NCBI RefSeq assembly: GCF_010093225.1
Contig: NZ_PDWM01000018.1
Location: forward strand, 1-58,375
Direction: 5' to 3'
DNA: 58,375 nucleotides
Source: Pseudoxanthomonas koreensis
GTDB taxonomy: Bacteria; Pseudomonadota; Gammaproteobacteria; Xanthomonadales; Xanthomonadaceae
In this document: in pieces, positions 43,808 through 52,524 of the stretch
Layout: each line of letters starts with the position of its first letter
Position numbering within the stretch: the first letter of the stretch is position 1
Translations under genes and position numbers: made by a program
The notes under the pieces: generated by a model
What the model was told of the DNA's origin: nothing
Database searches by the model: none
What the model saw: only the letters and a program-made list of their open reading frames with translations

Positions 43808-45700
43808 ATGCGTTACGAAGACTTCCACCGGCGTTCGATCGAGGAGCCGGAAGCGTTCTGGGCCGAGGCCGCGCAGGCCATCGACTGGCACACCCCGCCG
43901 CAGCGCATCCTCGACTACGACAATCCGCCGTTCCGGCGCTGGTTCGTCGGCGGCACCACCAACCTGTGCCACAACGCGGTCGACCGCCACCTGGCCGAGC
44001 GTGGCGACCAGCTCGCCCTGGTCGGCTGGTCCAGCGAGACTGGCAGCGTGTGCGAGCTGACCTTCCGCCAGCTGCACCGCGAGGTGAACACCTTCGCCGC
44101 CGCGCTGCAGTCGCTGGGCGTGGACACCGGCGACCGGGTGGTGGTGTACATGCCGCACACCGTGGACGCGGCCATCGCCATGCTCGCCTGCGCGCGCATC
44201 GGCGCGGTGCACTCGGTGGTGTTCGGTGGCTTCGCCTCGCACAACCTGGCGCTGCGCATCGACGATGCGAAGCCGAAGGTGCTGGTCTGTGCCGACGCCG
44301 GCATGCGCGGCGGCAAGGTGATCCCGTTCAAGCCGATGGTGGACGAGGCGCTGGCGCTGTCGGCGCATCCGCCGGTGCACGTGCTGGTGGTCAACCGCGG
44401 CCTAGCGGGCGAGTTGCCGATGCAGCAGGGCCGCGACCTGGAGTACGGCCCGCTGCGCCAGGCCCATGCCGACGCCGAAGTGCCCGTGGCATGGCTGGAA
44501 GCCAACGCGCCCAGCTACATCCTCTACACCTCCGGCACCACCGGCAAGCCCAAGGGCGTGCAGCGCGACGTCGGCGGCTACGCGGTGGCACTGGCGCTGT
44601 CGATGTGGTCGATCTACGACATCCGCGCCGGCCAGGTGATGTTCTCCACCTCCGACATCGGCTGGGTGGTGGGCCATTCCTACAACGTGTATGGCCCGCT
44701 GATCGCCGGCGCCACCTCGATCCTCTACGAAGGCCTGCCGACGTCGCCCGACCCGGGCATCTGGTGGAAGATCTGCGAGCGCTACGGCGTGCGCACCATG
44801 TTCTCCTCGCCCACCGCGGTGCGCGTGCTGAAGAAGCAGGACCCGGAATGGCTGCGCCGGCACGACCTGTCGAAGCTGCAATACCTGTTCCTGGCCGGCG
44901 AACCGCTGGACGAGCCGACCGCCGACTGGATCGCCGGCGCGCTCGGCAAGACCGTGATCGACAACTACTGGCAGACCGAGACCGGCTGGCCGGTGCTGAC
45001 CCTGATGCCCGGGGTCGAGATGAAGCCGGTGAAGCTCGGCTCGCCGGGCCTGCCCGCACCGGGCTACCGCCTGCGCGTGATCGACGAGAACACCGGGCGC
45101 GACTGCGGCCCCGGCGAGAAGGGCGTGCTGGCGATCCAGCCGCCGCTGCCGCCGGGCTGCCTGACCACGGTGTGGGGCAACGACGAGCGCTTCATCGCCA
45201 GCTACTTCAGCCATTTCAAGGAGCTGCTGTACAGCTCGCTGGACTGGGCGATCCGCGACGAGGACGGCTACGCCTTCATCCTCGGCCGCACCGACGACGT
45301 GATCAACGTGGCCGGCCACCGCCTGGGCACGCGCGAGATCGAGGAATCGGTATCCAGCCATCCGGCCGTGGCCGAGGCGGCGGTGATCGGCGTGCACGAC
45401 GAACTGAAGGGGCAGGTGCCGGTGGTGTTCGCCACGCTCAAGCGCAGCGACGGCGATGCGGCCGAGTCCGCCGCGCAGATGATGCGCACCGTGACCGAGC
45501 AGCTCGGCGCGGTGGCGCGGCCGTCACGGGTGTACGTGGTCAACGCGCTGCCGAAGACGCGTTCGGGCAAGCTGCTGCGGCGTTCGCTGCAGGCGCTGGC
45601 CGAGCAGCGCGACCCGGGCGACCTGTCCACGCTGGACGATCCCAACGCGCTGGAGGAAGTGAAGCGCGCGCTGGAGCGGGGCGCGGACGCGGGCGGCTGA
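43808..45700 (+). CDS. prpE: Propionate-CoA ligase
   Basis: Activates propionate to propionyl-CoA by way of propionyl-AMP, feeding the methylcitrate cycle. 630 aa, ANL superfamily. ATP-binding P-loop YILYTSGTTGKPKGVQRD (about residues 237-254), NYWQTETGWP, and the acylation lysine K588 in KTRSGKLLRR. The run KGVQRDVGGYAVAL is the PrpE rather than the Acs version. prpB and prpC lie 4 kb downstream on the same strand, separated by a cassette-like insertion, a peptidase gene and a regulator. Confidence 0.93.
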   Translation: MRYEDFHRRSIEEPEAFWAEAAQAIDWHTPPQRILDYDNPPFRRWFVGGTTNLCHNAVDRHLAERGDQLALVGWSSETGSVCELTFRQLHREVNTFAAALQSLGVDTGDRVVVYMPHTVDAAIAMLACARIGAVHSVVFGGFASHNLALRIDDAKPKVLVCADAGMRGGKVIPFKPMVDEALALSAHPPVHVLVVNRGLAGELPMQQGRDLEYGPLRQAHADAEVPVAWLEANAPSYILYTSGTTGKPKGVQRDVGGYAVALALSMWSIYDIRAGQVMFSTSDIGWVVGHSYNVYGPLIAGATSILYEGLPTSPDPGIWWKICERYGVRTMFSSPTAVRVLKKQDPEWLRRHDLSKLQYLFLAGEPLDEPTADWIAGALGKTVIDNYWQTETGWPVLTLMPGVEMKPVKLGSPGLPAPGYRLRVIDENTGRDCGPGEKGVLAIQPPLPPGCLTTVWGNDERFIASYFSHFKELLYSSLDWAIRDEDGYAFILGRTDDVINVAGHRLGTREIEESVSSHPAVAEAAVIGVHDELKGQVPVVFATLKRSDGDAAESAAQMMRTVTEQLGAVARPSRVYVVNALPKTRSGKLLRRSLQALAEQRDPGDLSTLDDPNALEEVKRALERGADAGG

Positions 45701-48431: not shown

Positions 48432-49658
48432 TCAATCGTGGGCGACGTCGGCGTCGGCCTCCGGCTGCAGTCCGGTGTAGCTCGCGCGCGGCCGGATCAC
48501 CTGCCCCGGCGCCTGCTGTTCCAGCGCGTGCGCCAGCCAGCCGGCCAGCCGCCCCGCCGCGAACATCGACAGCGCCGGCGCAGCCGGCAGTCCATGCGCG
48601 AAGCAGATCGCGGCCAGGGTGAAGTCCACGTTCGGGCGCCGCCCGCTGGCGGCTTCGGCGGCGGCGATCACCGCTTCGAGCGTGCGCAACGTGTCGGCGT
48701 CGACCGGGTTGGCGCGCAGCATCGCCAGCAGGGTGGCCGCGCGCGGGTCGCCGTCGGGGTACAGCGCATGGCCGAAACCCGGCAGGTCTTCGCCGCGTTG
48801 CCAGCGCTTGGCGATGAAGCTTTCGATGTCGGCCGATTCGCGCGCGCTTTCCACCAGGGCGTAGGCGCGGGCGGTGGCGCCGCCGTGGCGCGGACCCGAC
48901 AGCGCGGCCAGGCCGGCGCAGACGGTGGCGTGCAGGTGCGCGCCGGTGGAGGCGACCACGCGTGCGGCGAATGCGGACACGTTGAGTTCGTGGTCGGCGC
49001 ACAGCACCAGCGCGGCGCGGACCAGCTCGGCGAAGGCCGCATCGCCGGGGCGCCAGGCCTCGCCGAGCAGGCGGTGGACCGGGCCGGCCGGGCGCCGGGC
49101 GACCAGCAGGGCGGCGTTCTGGCGCAGCAGGGTGGCGGCCACCGCGCGGCGGGTCGGCTGGTCGGCCTGGAATGAATGCGGCACGTGCAGGGCCAGCAGC
49201 GGGATCGCGGCCATCGACCGGCTCAGCGGCGGCAGCCCGGCGTCGGTGGCCAGCGCGGCGATGTGCGCCGGCCAGTCGCCGGGCGGGTCGGCGAACGGAT
49301 TCTGGCTGCCGCAGTCCCACAGCAGGCGGGCGATGTCTTCCAGGGTGGCGCCGGCTTCGGCGGCGGCCACGGCCGGGCGGCCGCGGTAGTAGGGGCCGTC
49401 CGGGCGGATCAGCGAAATCCGGGTTTCCAGCACCGGCAGGCCGCGGTCCAGGCTCTGCGCCGCGCCGCGCGCGGGGCCGCGGCCCAGGCGCTTGCGCTGG
49501 GCCAGCCGCTCCACGTCCTGGCGCCGGTAGACGCGGCTGCGATGGTCCGCGCCGGGGCGCGATTCGAGCAGGCCGCGGCTGACGTAGGCATACAGCGTGG
49601 CGGCGCTGATGCCGAGGATCCGGCAGGCTTCGGTGGCGGGAATGAGGTCGCGGTCCAT
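48432..49658 (-). CDS. MerR-type HTH / citrate synthase fusion protein
   Basis: 408 aa. Residues 5-55 are a MerR-like winged HTH (ATEACRILGISAATLYAYV, wing HRSRVYRRQDVERL). Residues about 75-398 are a complete citrate-synthase fold. The catalytic triad is kept: His223 (ADHELN), His258 (GPRHGG) and Asp345 (NVDFT), as are Arg370 (GRLAGW) and the RPR of VIRPRASYTG. GHALY replaces the usual GHR/GHP at 296-300. Divergent from prpB, with a palindrome between them. I infer a regulator of propionate genes that binds oxaloacetate, acyl-CoA or methylcitrate, perhaps still an enzyme. A plain second citrate synthase is the alternative. Confidence 0.88.
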   Translation of the reverse strand: MDRDLIPATEACRILGISAATLYAYVSRGLLESRPGADHRSRVYRRQDVERLAQRKRLGRGPARGAAQSLDRGLPVLETRISLIRPDGPYYRGRPAVAAAEAGATLEDIARLLWDCGSQNPFADPPGDWPAHIAALATDAGLPPLSRSMAAIPLLALHVPHSFQADQPTRRAVAATLLRQNAALLVARRPAGPVHRLLGEAWRPGDAAFAELVRAALVLCADHELNVSAFAARVVASTGAHLHATVCAGLAALSGPRHGGATARAYALVESARESADIESFIAKRWQRGEDLPGFGHALYPDGDPRAATLLAMLRANPVDADTLRTLEAVIAAAEAASGRRPNVDFTLAAICFAHGLPAAPALSMFAAGRLAGWLAHALEQQAPGQVIRPRASYTGLQPEADADVAHD

Positions 49659-49663
49659 CGGGA

Positions 49664-49694
49664 AATATTGATCGATACGATCAAGATTGATCAA
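49664..49694 (-). promoter_or_regulatory. Promoter-operator of the HTH-citrate synthase gene; probable prpBC control site
   Basis: On the minus strand TTGATC (-35, plus coordinates 49689-49694) and AATATT (-10, 49664-49669) are 19 bp apart. The spacer region contains the palindrome TTGATC-GTATC-GATCAA (49668-49684), which overlaps the -10 edge. A second, 8-bp palindrome TTGATCAA lies at 49687-49694. Long spacers filled by an inverted repeat are the MerR hallmark. The expected start falls at the ATG itself (leaderless). Only a weak plus-strand promoter for prpB can be seen. Confidence 0.6.
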
Positions 49695-49754
49695 CTGATG
49701 GCAGGGTGACACATTGCCGGTGCCGCGTGCACCCTGCGCACCGAGGAACCGTCC

Positions 49755-50642
49755 ATGTCCAGCCCCCTGTCCGCCGGCGCGAAGTTCCGCGCCGCCCTGG
49801 CCGCCGAATCGCCGCTGCAGGTGATCGGCGCGATCAACGCCAACCACGCGCTGCTGGCGCAGCGTGCCGGCTACCGCGCGATCTACCTGTCCGGTGGCGG
49901 CGTGGCCGCCGGTTCGCTGGGCCTGCCGGACCTGGGCATCAACACGCTGGACGACGTGCTGGTCGACACCCGCCGCATCACCGACGTGTGCGACCTGCCG
50001 CTGCTGGTCGACATCGACACCGGCTTCGGCCCGAGTGCGTTCAACATCGAGCGCACGGTCAAGTCGCTGATCAAGGCCGGTGCGGCCGCCTGCCACATCG
50101 AGGACCAGGTCGGCGCCAAGCGCTGCGGCCATCGCCCGGGCAAGGAGATCGTGAGCGCCGGCGAGATGGCCGACCGGGTCAAGGCCGCGGCCGATGCGAA
50201 GACCGACGCGTCGTTCTTCCTGATCGCGCGCACCGACGCGATCCAGGTCGACGGCGTGGATGCGGCGATCGAGCGCGCCATCGCCTGCGTGGAGGCCGGC
50301 GCCGACGGCATCTTCGCCGAGGCCGCCTACGACCTGCCCACCTACAAGCGCTTCGTCGACGCGGTGAAGGTGCCGGTGCTGGCCAACATCACCGAGTTCG
50401 GCAAGACCCCGCTGTTCACCCGCGACGAACTGGCCTCGGTGGGCGTGGCGATCCAGCTGTTCCCGCTGTCGGCGTTCCGCGCCGCCAACAGGGCGGCGGA
50501 GAACGTCTACCAGGCGATCCGCCGCGACGGCCACCAGAAGTCCGTGGTGGACGCGATGCAGACGCGCGAGGAGCTGTACGACCGCATCGGCTACCACGCC
50601 TTCGAGCAGAAGCTCGACGGGCTGTTCGCCGCGAAGAAGTGA
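49755..50642 (+). CDS. prpB: Methylisocitrate lyase
   Basis: Splits 2-methylisocitrate into pyruvate and succinate, the last step of the methylcitrate cycle. 295 aa, isocitrate-lyase superfamily. The catalytic loop [12 protein letters not shown] (about residues 120-131), [16 protein letters not shown] and DIDTGFG are typical. GAGGA precedes the ATG. First gene of a prpB-prpC pair facing away from the HTH-citrate synthase gene. Confidence 0.96.
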
Positions 50643-50694: not shown

Positions 50695-51849
50695 ATGAGC
50701 GACACCACCACCACCCCCTTCAAGCCGAAGAAGTCCGTCGCCCTGTCCGGCACCGCCGCCGGCAATACCGCGCTGTGCACGGTCGGCCGCAGCGGCAACG
50801 ACCTGCACTACCGCGGCTACGACATCCTCGACCTGGCCACGAGCTCCGAGTTCGAGGAGATCGCCTACCTGCTGGTCCACGGCAAGCTGCCCAACACCGC
50901 CGAACTGGCCGGCTACAAGGCCAAGCTGAAGTCGCTGCGCGGGATCCCGGCCGCGGTGAAGGCCGCGCTGGAAGAACTGCCGCCGTCGGCGCACCCGATG
51001 GACGTGATGCGCACCGGCGTGTCGGTGCTCGGCTGCGTGTCGCCGGAGAAGGACGACCACAACCATCCCGGCGCGCGCGACATCGCCGACAAGCTGATGG
51101 CCTGCCTCGGTTCGATGCTGCTGTACTGGTACCACTGGTCGCACAACGGCCGCGCGATCGACGTGGAAACCGACGACGACTCGATCGGCGGCCACTTCCT
51201 GCACCTGCTGCACGGCGAGCCGCCGCGCGAATCGTGGGTGCGGGCGATGCACACCTCGCTGATCCTCTACGCCGAGCACGAGTTCAACGCGTCCACGTTC
51301 ACCGCGCGCGTCATCGCCGGCACCGGCAGCGACATGCACAGCTGCATCACCGGTGCGATCGGCGCGCTGCGCGGGCCCAAGCACGGCGGCGCCAACGAGG
51401 TCGCCTTCGAGGTGCAGAAGCGCTACGACAGCCCGGACGACGCCGAAGCCGACATCAAGGCCCGGGTCGAGCGCAAGGAAGTGGTGATCGGTTTCGGCCA
51501 CCCGGTGTATACCGTGGGCGACCCGCGCAACCAGGTGATCAAACAGGTGGCGAAGGACCTGTCGGCCGAGCAGTCGAGCATGAAGATGTACGACATCGCC
51601 GAGCGGCTGGAGACGGTGATGTGGGACATCAAGAAGATGTTCCCCAACCTGGACTGGTTCAGCGCGGTCAGCTACCACATGATGGGCGTGCCCACCGCGA
51701 TGTTCACCCCGCTTTTCGTGATCGCGCGCACATCCGGGTGGAGCGCCCATGTGATCGAGCAGCGGATCGATGGCAAGATCATCCGGCCCAGCGCCAACTA
51801 CACCGGGCCTGAGGACCAGAAGTTCGTGCCGAGGGATCGGCGGGGGTGA
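50695..51849 (+). CDS. prpC: 2-methylcitrate synthase
   Basis: Condenses propionyl-CoA with oxaloacetate. 384 aa. The citrate-synthase signature GPKHGGANE, catalytic His in [23 protein letters not shown] and [10 protein letters not shown] are present. The short-type length and the prpB neighbour make it PrpC rather than GltA. acnD/prpF or prpD, usual next genes, do not follow. Confidence 0.95.
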
Positions 51850-51879: not shown

Positions 51880-52524
51880 ATGCGCGAGGGGATCTATCGC
51901 AAGACGGATGCGGGTCGGGACGAGATCCGTGACCGCAGCCGGCGCCTGCCGCCGGCATTGAGGACCGTGCTGTTGATGGTGGACGGCCAGCGCACGCTGG
52001 CCGACCTGCGCCAGGTGGCCGGCGGCATGCGCGCGCCGGACGACGCACTGGAGCGCCTGCTGGCGGAAGGGCTGATCGAGCCGACCACCGACAGCTTCGA
52101 CGTGGAAGGCCTGATGCGGGCCGCATCAGGCAGCGCCGCCGCCGCGGCCATGGCCAGGCCGGCAGTGGCGGTGGCACCGCCGGTGCCGCTGCCTGCACCA
52201 CCCGAGCCCACCACCGCATCCGCGGCAGGACCGGCGTCCCAGGCCCAGATCGCCGACGAAGCCATCGCCGTGCTGGACGTCGCGCCGGACGCGACCACGC
52301 CCGCCCTTGATCCCGACCACTACGTGCGCCTGTACGGCCGCATGACCGAGGCGGTGCGTACCCACCTGGGCCTGCGCGGCTATTTCCTGCAGCTGAAGAT
52401 CGAGCGCTGCACTGACGCAGCCGGCCTGCAGGCCGTGCTCCCGGAGCTGCGCCAGGCCCTGGCCAAGAGCAAGGGCGCCAGCTTCGCCAGCGACTGGGAG
52501 CGGGCGCTGGTAGAGCCGGCCTGA
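51880..52524 (+). CDS. Unknown protein with winged-helix-like N-terminus
   Basis: 214 aa, not recognised beyond a vague Xanthomonadaceae feel. Residues 1-75 look like a winged helix (RTVLLMVDGQRTLADLRQVA, then ALERLLAEGLIEPT). Residues 76-130 are an Ala/Pro-rich linker. Residues 135-214 form a helical C-terminal domain (DPDHYVRLYGRMTEAVRTHL). No signal or membrane helix. It starts 30 bp after prpC, so it may share its transcript. A 15-bp GC-rich hairpin follows at once. Confidence 0.8.
   Translation: MREGIYRKTDAGRDEIRDRSRRLPPALRTVLLMVDGQRTLADLRQVAGGMRAPDDALERLLAEGLIEPTTDSFDVEGLMRAASGSAAAAAMARPAVAVAPPVPLPAPPEPTTASAAGPASQAQIADEAIAVLDVAPDATTPALDPDHYVRLYGRMTEAVRTHLGLRGYFLQLKIERCTDAAGLQAVLPELRQALAKSKGASFASDWERALVEPA

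Follow-up and report, generated by a model that had tools for sequence, protein, structure and literature searches.

The HTH-citrate synthase gene and its prp neighbors

The window, by which we mean the whole 58,375-nucleotide stretch of DNA that was analyzed, carries a gene whose product joins an HTH DNA-binding domain to a citrate synthase domain (HTH-CS), and this gene is located head-to-head with the prpB-prpC pair (Table 1). The acnD gene is found on another contig (C37) of the same genome. Both prpB and prpC pass the equivalog cut-offs of their NCBIfam models, in agreement with the initial annotation, which had placed the fusion gene divergently from genes for methylisocitrate lyase and methylcitrate synthase. 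After prpC, positions 51880-52524 (forward strand) hold a 214-aa ORF that retrieved no Pfam or NCBIfam match.

Table 1. Features at and around the HTH-CS gene, with positions in the window
Feature	Position	Strand	Basis or remark
prpE, propionate-CoA ligase (close to prpBC but not next to it)	43808-45700	+	TIGR02316, 1152 bits (cut-off 827)
HTH-citrate synthase fusion (HTH-CS)	48432-49658	-	ATG start, 408 aa
Citrate synthase domain, residues 72-391	48486-49445	-	Pfam
HTH_17/MerR_1-like DNA-binding domain, residues 9-56	49491-49634	-	Pfam
Inverted repeat TTGAT-N7-ATCAA, putative HTH-CS dimer site	49668-49684	.	9 bp from HTH-CS start codon
Full conserved operator, 27 bp, TTGATN6GATCAAGATTGATCAA	49668-49694	+	Conservation
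Predicted prpB -35 (TTGATC), 2 bp after inverted repeat	49687-49692	+	Inferred from conservation and spacing
Predicted extended -10 (TGa-CACATT), 17-bp spacer	49707-49715	+	Conservation
prpB, 2-methylisocitrate lyase	49755-50642	+	PRK11320, 520 bits (cut-off 353)
prpC, 2-methylcitrate synthase	50695-51849	+	PRK12351, 722 bits (cut-off 550)

The fusion of a MerR-like HTH to a citrate synthase fold, likewise proposed earlier, was borne out by Pfam searches, in which HTH_17 (residues 9-56, 1.4e-8), MerR_1 (residues 9-58, 8.7e-7), and Citrate_synt (residues 72-391, 2.7e-63) all matched above cut-off; PrpR_N was not among the Pfam matches of the protein. The N-terminal domain is assigned to the MerR-type HTHs by MerR_1 (29.4 bits, cut-off 21.6), and the PF00376 MerR model gave 22.8, below its cut-off of 28.2. 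The Citrate_synt domain and the catalytic triad place the protein in the citrate synthase superfamily, and PRK12351 scores it at only 127 bits (cut-off 550), so that it is not assigned as a PrpC equivalog. A structure predicted with 31 aligned sequences as input (mean pLDDT 86.6) retrieved CitA, the M. tuberculosis methylcitrate synthase, and PrpC as the first-ranking Foldseek matches, with TM values of 0.62-0.69 by query length among the 50 matches listed.

To the best 80 of 229 matches from a genome-contig scan we added 12 from an order-wide HTH-CS search (limited to E up to 1e-60, the window's own excluded), giving 92 near loci; the loci L001-L003, which are the window itself and other citrate synthase genes, are excluded from all homologue counts. 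The prpB gene is located divergently beside HTH-CS in 91 of these 92 other near loci. Like the other counts given here, this one is inflated by related sequences: several loci stem from one species or from sister species, and the 93 sequences comprise 90 distinct proteins. The matched starts of the two genes are 89-228 bp apart. In the sole exception, L093 (genome G012), HTH-CS faces acnD-prpF, both above cut-off, and therefore this locus too faces methylcitrate genes. Chance adjacency of HTH-CS and prpB is ruled out by the 91/92 linkage. In four loci (L023, L086, L094, and L095), PrpB is 64-65% identical to that of the window and HTH-CS 57-73% identical; given the low PrpB identity, a different prpB lineage seems to occupy the same place beside the same regulator.

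The conserved operator, the predicted promoter, and PrpR

Between HTH-CS and prpB, the sequence of the operator (49668-49694) is TTGATCGATACGATCAAGATTGATCAA. The inverted repeat within it, TTGAT-N7-ATCAA, is exact in 90 of the 92 near loci and has one mismatch in the other two, against 0.0 of 92 expected when the letters of these near upstream regions are shuffled. It is also found exactly upstream of HTH-CS in 27 of 29 distant loci and in 15 members of a test set of 19 loci kept aside, the exact repeat being missing in 6 of these 48 far and held-out members. The held-out misses (L180, L181, L182, and L184) include all three members that lack the catalytic triad, which are discussed below. Across the 241,670 bp of the 48 loci the repeat occurs 42 times, and these occurrences are the 42 upstream sites; in 40 of the 42 it is followed by two bases and then TTGA. 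Among prpB loci, the operator core ATCAAGATTGAT is present in 9/9 with HTH-CS and in 0/21 without it.

Within the 3.05-Mb genome the 15-bp core occurs once at up to 2 mismatches, and the bare repeat also occurs at two other places (C5 and C77). The genome-wide search did not find the core at the acnD contig (C37). Given the single occurrence of the core, with the bare repeat at those two further places, we reject a wider regulon in this genome.

The operator could in principle belong to another, unlinked regulator that shares these targets. The link between HTH-CS and the motif is drawn from sequence comparison, and conservation of the -35 alone could account for part of the motif, but we consider this explanation very unlikely given the absence of the core from all 21 prpB loci without HTH-CS, the confinement of all 42 repeats to upstream sites, and the presence of the repeat with HTH-CS beside different targets. 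As the repeat is kept while the targets differ, HTH-CS is the shared factor. Similarly, HTH-CS could be a plain further citrate synthase isozyme whose HTH is vestigial or serves protein contacts, and its plasmid relatives are indeed mostly annotated as "citrate synthase family protein" (among 30 of 282 records listed). This we regard as extremely unlikely, as HTH residues T21, Y23, and R28 are invariant in 59/59 family members and the operator matches across distant loci; we reject a vestigial HTH on these same two grounds.

Of 77 distinct near windows (70 bp), 75 have the predicted extended -10 at the same distance. For the far loci, the best spacer is likewise 17 bp, moderately so (A2 and T6 in 18/40, against at most 6 at other spacers), and the 2-bp gap between the repeat and the predicted -35 is fixed in 40 of the 48 far and held-out loci. 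A site just upstream of the -35 is the usual place of an activator that touches sigma, whereas in MerR promoters the operator lies inside a long spacer of 19-20 bp. The HTH-CS repeat does not have the MerR arrangement, as it is located upstream of the predicted -35 and the predicted spacer is 17 bp. The position of the repeat just upstream of a normally spaced -35 suggests activation, unlike in the MerR family. A variant of the model presented below, in which HTH-CS is a repressor released by 2-methylcitrate, is possible, though we hold it to be the less probable form. In the near family the operator runs on across the predicted -35 as TTGATCAA, which would suit such a repressor, and the GntR-type PrpR of P. 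aeruginosa offers a precedent (PMC9765439). Against repression stand the fixed 2-bp distance of the repeat upstream of an optimally spaced promoter in those 40 loci and the downstream ATCAA, which is missing in many far operators.

The initial annotation noted that no PrpR gene is in the window, and this can be extended to the whole genome (99.95% complete), which has no match to PrpR_N (PF06506). Control of the window's prpBC by sigma54-PrpR is ruled out on this basis. In 151 genomes of the order, prpB was found in 136, HTH-CS in 13 (E up to 1e-60), and PrpR_N in 11; G031 is the only genome with both HTH-CS and a PrpR_N protein, and the two are unlinked there. In the 25 sampled genomes of the window's family, 8 have HTH-CS, 10 have PrpR, none has both, and 7 have neither (Fisher 0.006 for the exclusion, with phylogeny ignored). 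Both kinds are found within genus g2, with HTH-CS in one genome and PrpR in eight. All 10 PrpR genes of the family hold the same divergent place beside prpB. PrpR, of the sigma54/Fis type, shares this place and this pathway with HTH-CS but is unrelated to it, as HTH-CS is without PrpR_N and a predicted sigma70-like promoter is conserved at HTH-CS loci.

The 7 family genomes that have prpB and neither regulator at the thresholds used indicate that prpBC can run without both. Reading 30 prpB loci gave 9 with HTH-CS, 10 with a divergent PrpR-type ORF (the 10 family genomes with PrpR), and 11 with neither; by signature strings, the upstream ORF in these 11 is malate-dehydrogenase-like in 5 and acyl-CoA-synthetase-like in 4, and 2 are unassigned. 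In L153, L154, L158, L161, and L163, which lack HTH-CS, an ORF judged by eye to be malate-dehydrogenase-like immediately precedes prpB in the same orientation.

The proposal that HTH-CS regulates prpBC thus draws support from the linkage, the conserved operator, and the finding that sister genomes have PrpR at this position. Judged from these comparisons, HTH-CS very probably controls prpBC, and it probably regulates itself too.

Distant relatives and the active site

In a phylogenetic tree, the fusion proteins form one clade apart from 24 compared enzymes, on a branch with 100/100 support; the window's protein falls in this clade and has the TTGAT-N7-ATCAA operator, and it is accordingly counted as a member of the HTH-CS family. 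When a sample of 398 genomes from the phylum was searched with a 19-sequence profile (E up to 1e-40), 48 of them gave matches. With two exceptions, these matches start at profile position 1-7, which corresponds to the HTH; the frames of both exceptions carry an HTH as well, and one of the two is an extra copy within its genome. A class-wide sample gave matches in 5 of 369 genomes, one of the five in the citrate synthase part only. The distribution of HTH-CS is wide but patchy.

In 22 of the 29 distant loci, HTH-CS has a stand-alone citrate synthase as its divergent neighbor. This neighbor is a type III CoA transferase, with the same operator, in L107, L109, L110, and L134, a 2-hydroxyacid dehydrogenase in L127, a gene annotated as DUF2332 in L133, and a cation-efflux gene (by eye) in L122. 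In 12 of the 19 held-out loci, a citrate synthase-like ORF is on the other strand. The linkage to prp genes, a part of the original proposal, holds within the window's order (91/92 in the near loci) and not outside it, where the partner is mostly citrate synthase; prp linkage is special to this order. Since the far homologues, though usually unlinked to prp, mostly stand beside citrate synthase with the same operator, the reading of HTH-CS as a regulator is strengthened rather than refuted.

Aligned with the window's PrpC (His230/His269/Asp320), the catalytic triad of HTH-CS is His258/His297/Asp345. The PrpC residues can be equated with the P. aeruginosa PrpC triad, published as His222/His261/Asp312 (PMC9765439), because all three differ by 8. 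His223, His258, and Asp345, listed in the initial annotation as kept, are indeed all found in the protein, yet they do not make up the catalytic triad, as His223 is a ligand-binding histidine. It aligns with PrpC His195, and we take it to be the counterpart of the oxaloacetate-binding pig His238; Arg306, Arg370, and Arg389 are likewise assumed to be the substrate-carboxylate arginines equivalent to pig Arg329, Arg401, and Arg421'. Pig His238 is named as an active-site residue of citrate synthase in PMC4524684.

Across 59 family members (an alignment of 40 sequences of set A2 and the 19 held-out ones, covering only part of the near loci), H223, R306, and R389 are kept in 59/59 and R370 in 58/59. 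The triad counts are 56 for H258, 55 for H297 (including a stray His of L181, whose GFGH motif is gone), and 56 for D345. Triad conservation is complete among the near sequences (93/93, the window's HTH-CS included) and incomplete in the wider family, where 3/59 members (L180, L181, and L184) have lost the triad entirely and His297 alone is replaced in L117 and L122; the ligand residues are kept in all five. R214 is specific to the HTH-CS family. The segment at 185-195 measures 10-22 residues in the family, mostly 11-12, against 24-29 in the 24 compared enzymes. We presume that this segment is near the CoA site, and its shortening makes that site, as predicted from sequence, uncertain.

In the tree, L184 and L122 group together (95/93) within a clade to which L180 and L181 do not belong, which suggests that the triad was lost twice, on long branches and with joins flagged by the tree program as possibly false. 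L122 and L184, which are related, are both without the operator, have one and all triad residues changed, respectively, and both face a cation-efflux gene. In L184 that gene was identified by Pfam, and it gives no pointer to citrate. L180 and L181 face MipA-CitMHS, a citrate-transporter operon. In L188, a longer stretch of L180's genome, CitMHS scores 502 bits (cut-off 260). Positions 3263-11737 of L188 encode on one strand MipA, CitMHS, a 2-hydroxyacid dehydrogenase, an AtuA-like protein, LeuC-type and small-subunit aconitase proteins, and MmgE/PrpD, and this gene content suggests an operon for breaking down a substituted citrate.

The initial annotation regarded HTH-CS as a trigger-enzyme switch. 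A true trigger enzyme would be an active (methyl)citrate synthase that is DNA-bound in one catalytic state and reports its own flux. The intact triad of the near sequences and of most of the wider family fits this idea, but the loss of the triad in 3/59 members and of His297 alone in two others with ligand residues kept, the shortened segment 185-195, and the dedicated PrpC next door make it unlikely. In the form proposed, the idea is not upheld, as catalysis seems dispensable for regulation in the HTH-CS family. Sensing by the citrate synthase domain, another part of that proposal, fares better as to ligand binding, since the oxaloacetate/citrate residues are conserved even in triad-less members, and less so as to which ligand is bound. 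Citrate-type acids are common to the partners prpBC, acnD-prpF, citrate synthase, and the citrate carrier; the link is less clear for the CoA-transferase and dehydrogenase partners. From the ligand residues kept without the triad, together with these citrate-type partners, we infer that the cleft serves to receive citrate-class ligands, which in this organism would be 2-methylcitrate, or oxaloacetate plus propionyl-CoA. We would like to note that, as the triad-less members are without the operator, the best examples of ligand sensing do not carry TTGAT-N7-ATCAA.

A regulatory model and related systems

We consider it likely that HTH-CS acts locally on prpBC as a one-component regulator, with a citrate synthase cleft that is a citrate-class receptor and without need for catalysis. 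The citrate synthase fold would hold the dimer together, as in the enzymes, placing two HTHs on the inverted repeat, and the active-site cleft would bind 2-methylcitrate, or oxaloacetate with propionyl-CoA. An open-to-closed movement would then change the spacing of the HTHs or the contact with RNA polymerase and so switch prpB transcription. With the fixed 2-bp gap to the -35, activation would take place next to sigma rather than by MerR-style untwisting of the DNA. Ligand-driven domain closure is described for citrate synthase and PrpC in PMC9765439 and PMC4524684. Quite unlikely, in our estimation, is a mixed reading in which triad-intact members are coincidence detectors that make the inducer in place and triad-less members are their descendants and pure citrate receptors; if it were true, transcription would follow the reaction of oxaloacetate and propionyl-CoA and not the pool.

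The preferred model, with HTH-CS as a citrate-class receptor, can be compared to several known systems. GltA, PrpC, and M. tuberculosis CitA have the fold, triad, and ligand residues in common with HTH-CS but are without its N-terminal HTH, shortened segment 185-195, R214, and separate branch. With the MerR family, HTH-CS shares an N-terminal MerR_1/HTH_17-like HTH and an inverted-repeat operator. In MerR proteins the HTH is followed by a long antiparallel dimerization helix. The HTH-CS model has no long helix at this place, its sole helix after the HTH being residues 60-71 at a pLDDT of about 40, so that any difference on this point is tentative; the predicted promoter differs as described above. 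MocR/GabR-type regulators, in which an HTH is fused to an aminotransferase fold, resemble HTH-CS in using a whole metabolic enzyme fold as the receptor of a one-component regulator, although the folds are unrelated.

Among the matches listed in a search of titles and abstracts of open-licence literature, no description of an HTH-citrate synthase regulator was found. Suvorova et al. 2012 (J Bacteriol 194:3234) are said to have treated the regulation of propionate catabolism in proteobacteria and to have proposed new regulators, among them "PrpQ". We suppose that PrpQ could be HTH-CS, in which case some of what is predicted here for the order may have been published before.

If the model is true, a central metabolic enzyme fold has been recruited as a transcription-factor sensor in many Proteobacteria, and in some genomes of one family HTH-CS stands in for PrpR. 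Proteins annotated only as "citrate synthase family protein" would gain a function, and HTH-CS would offer a candidate sensor of (methyl)citrate or oxaloacetate for use in biosensors. The members with an intact triad, with one His lost, and with all residues lost would form a natural series for studying the passage from enzyme to receptor.

A further observation concerns the stand-alone synthases beside distant HTH-CS genes. All 22 of them (L108, L111-L121, L123-L126, L128-L132, and L135) carry Glu instead of the catalytic Asp, and the four that were scanned score above the NCBIfam PRK12350 cut-off. By this residue, their reaction may differ from that of ordinary citrate synthase. In the alignment, M. 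tuberculosis CitA likewise has Glu at the catalytic Asp position.
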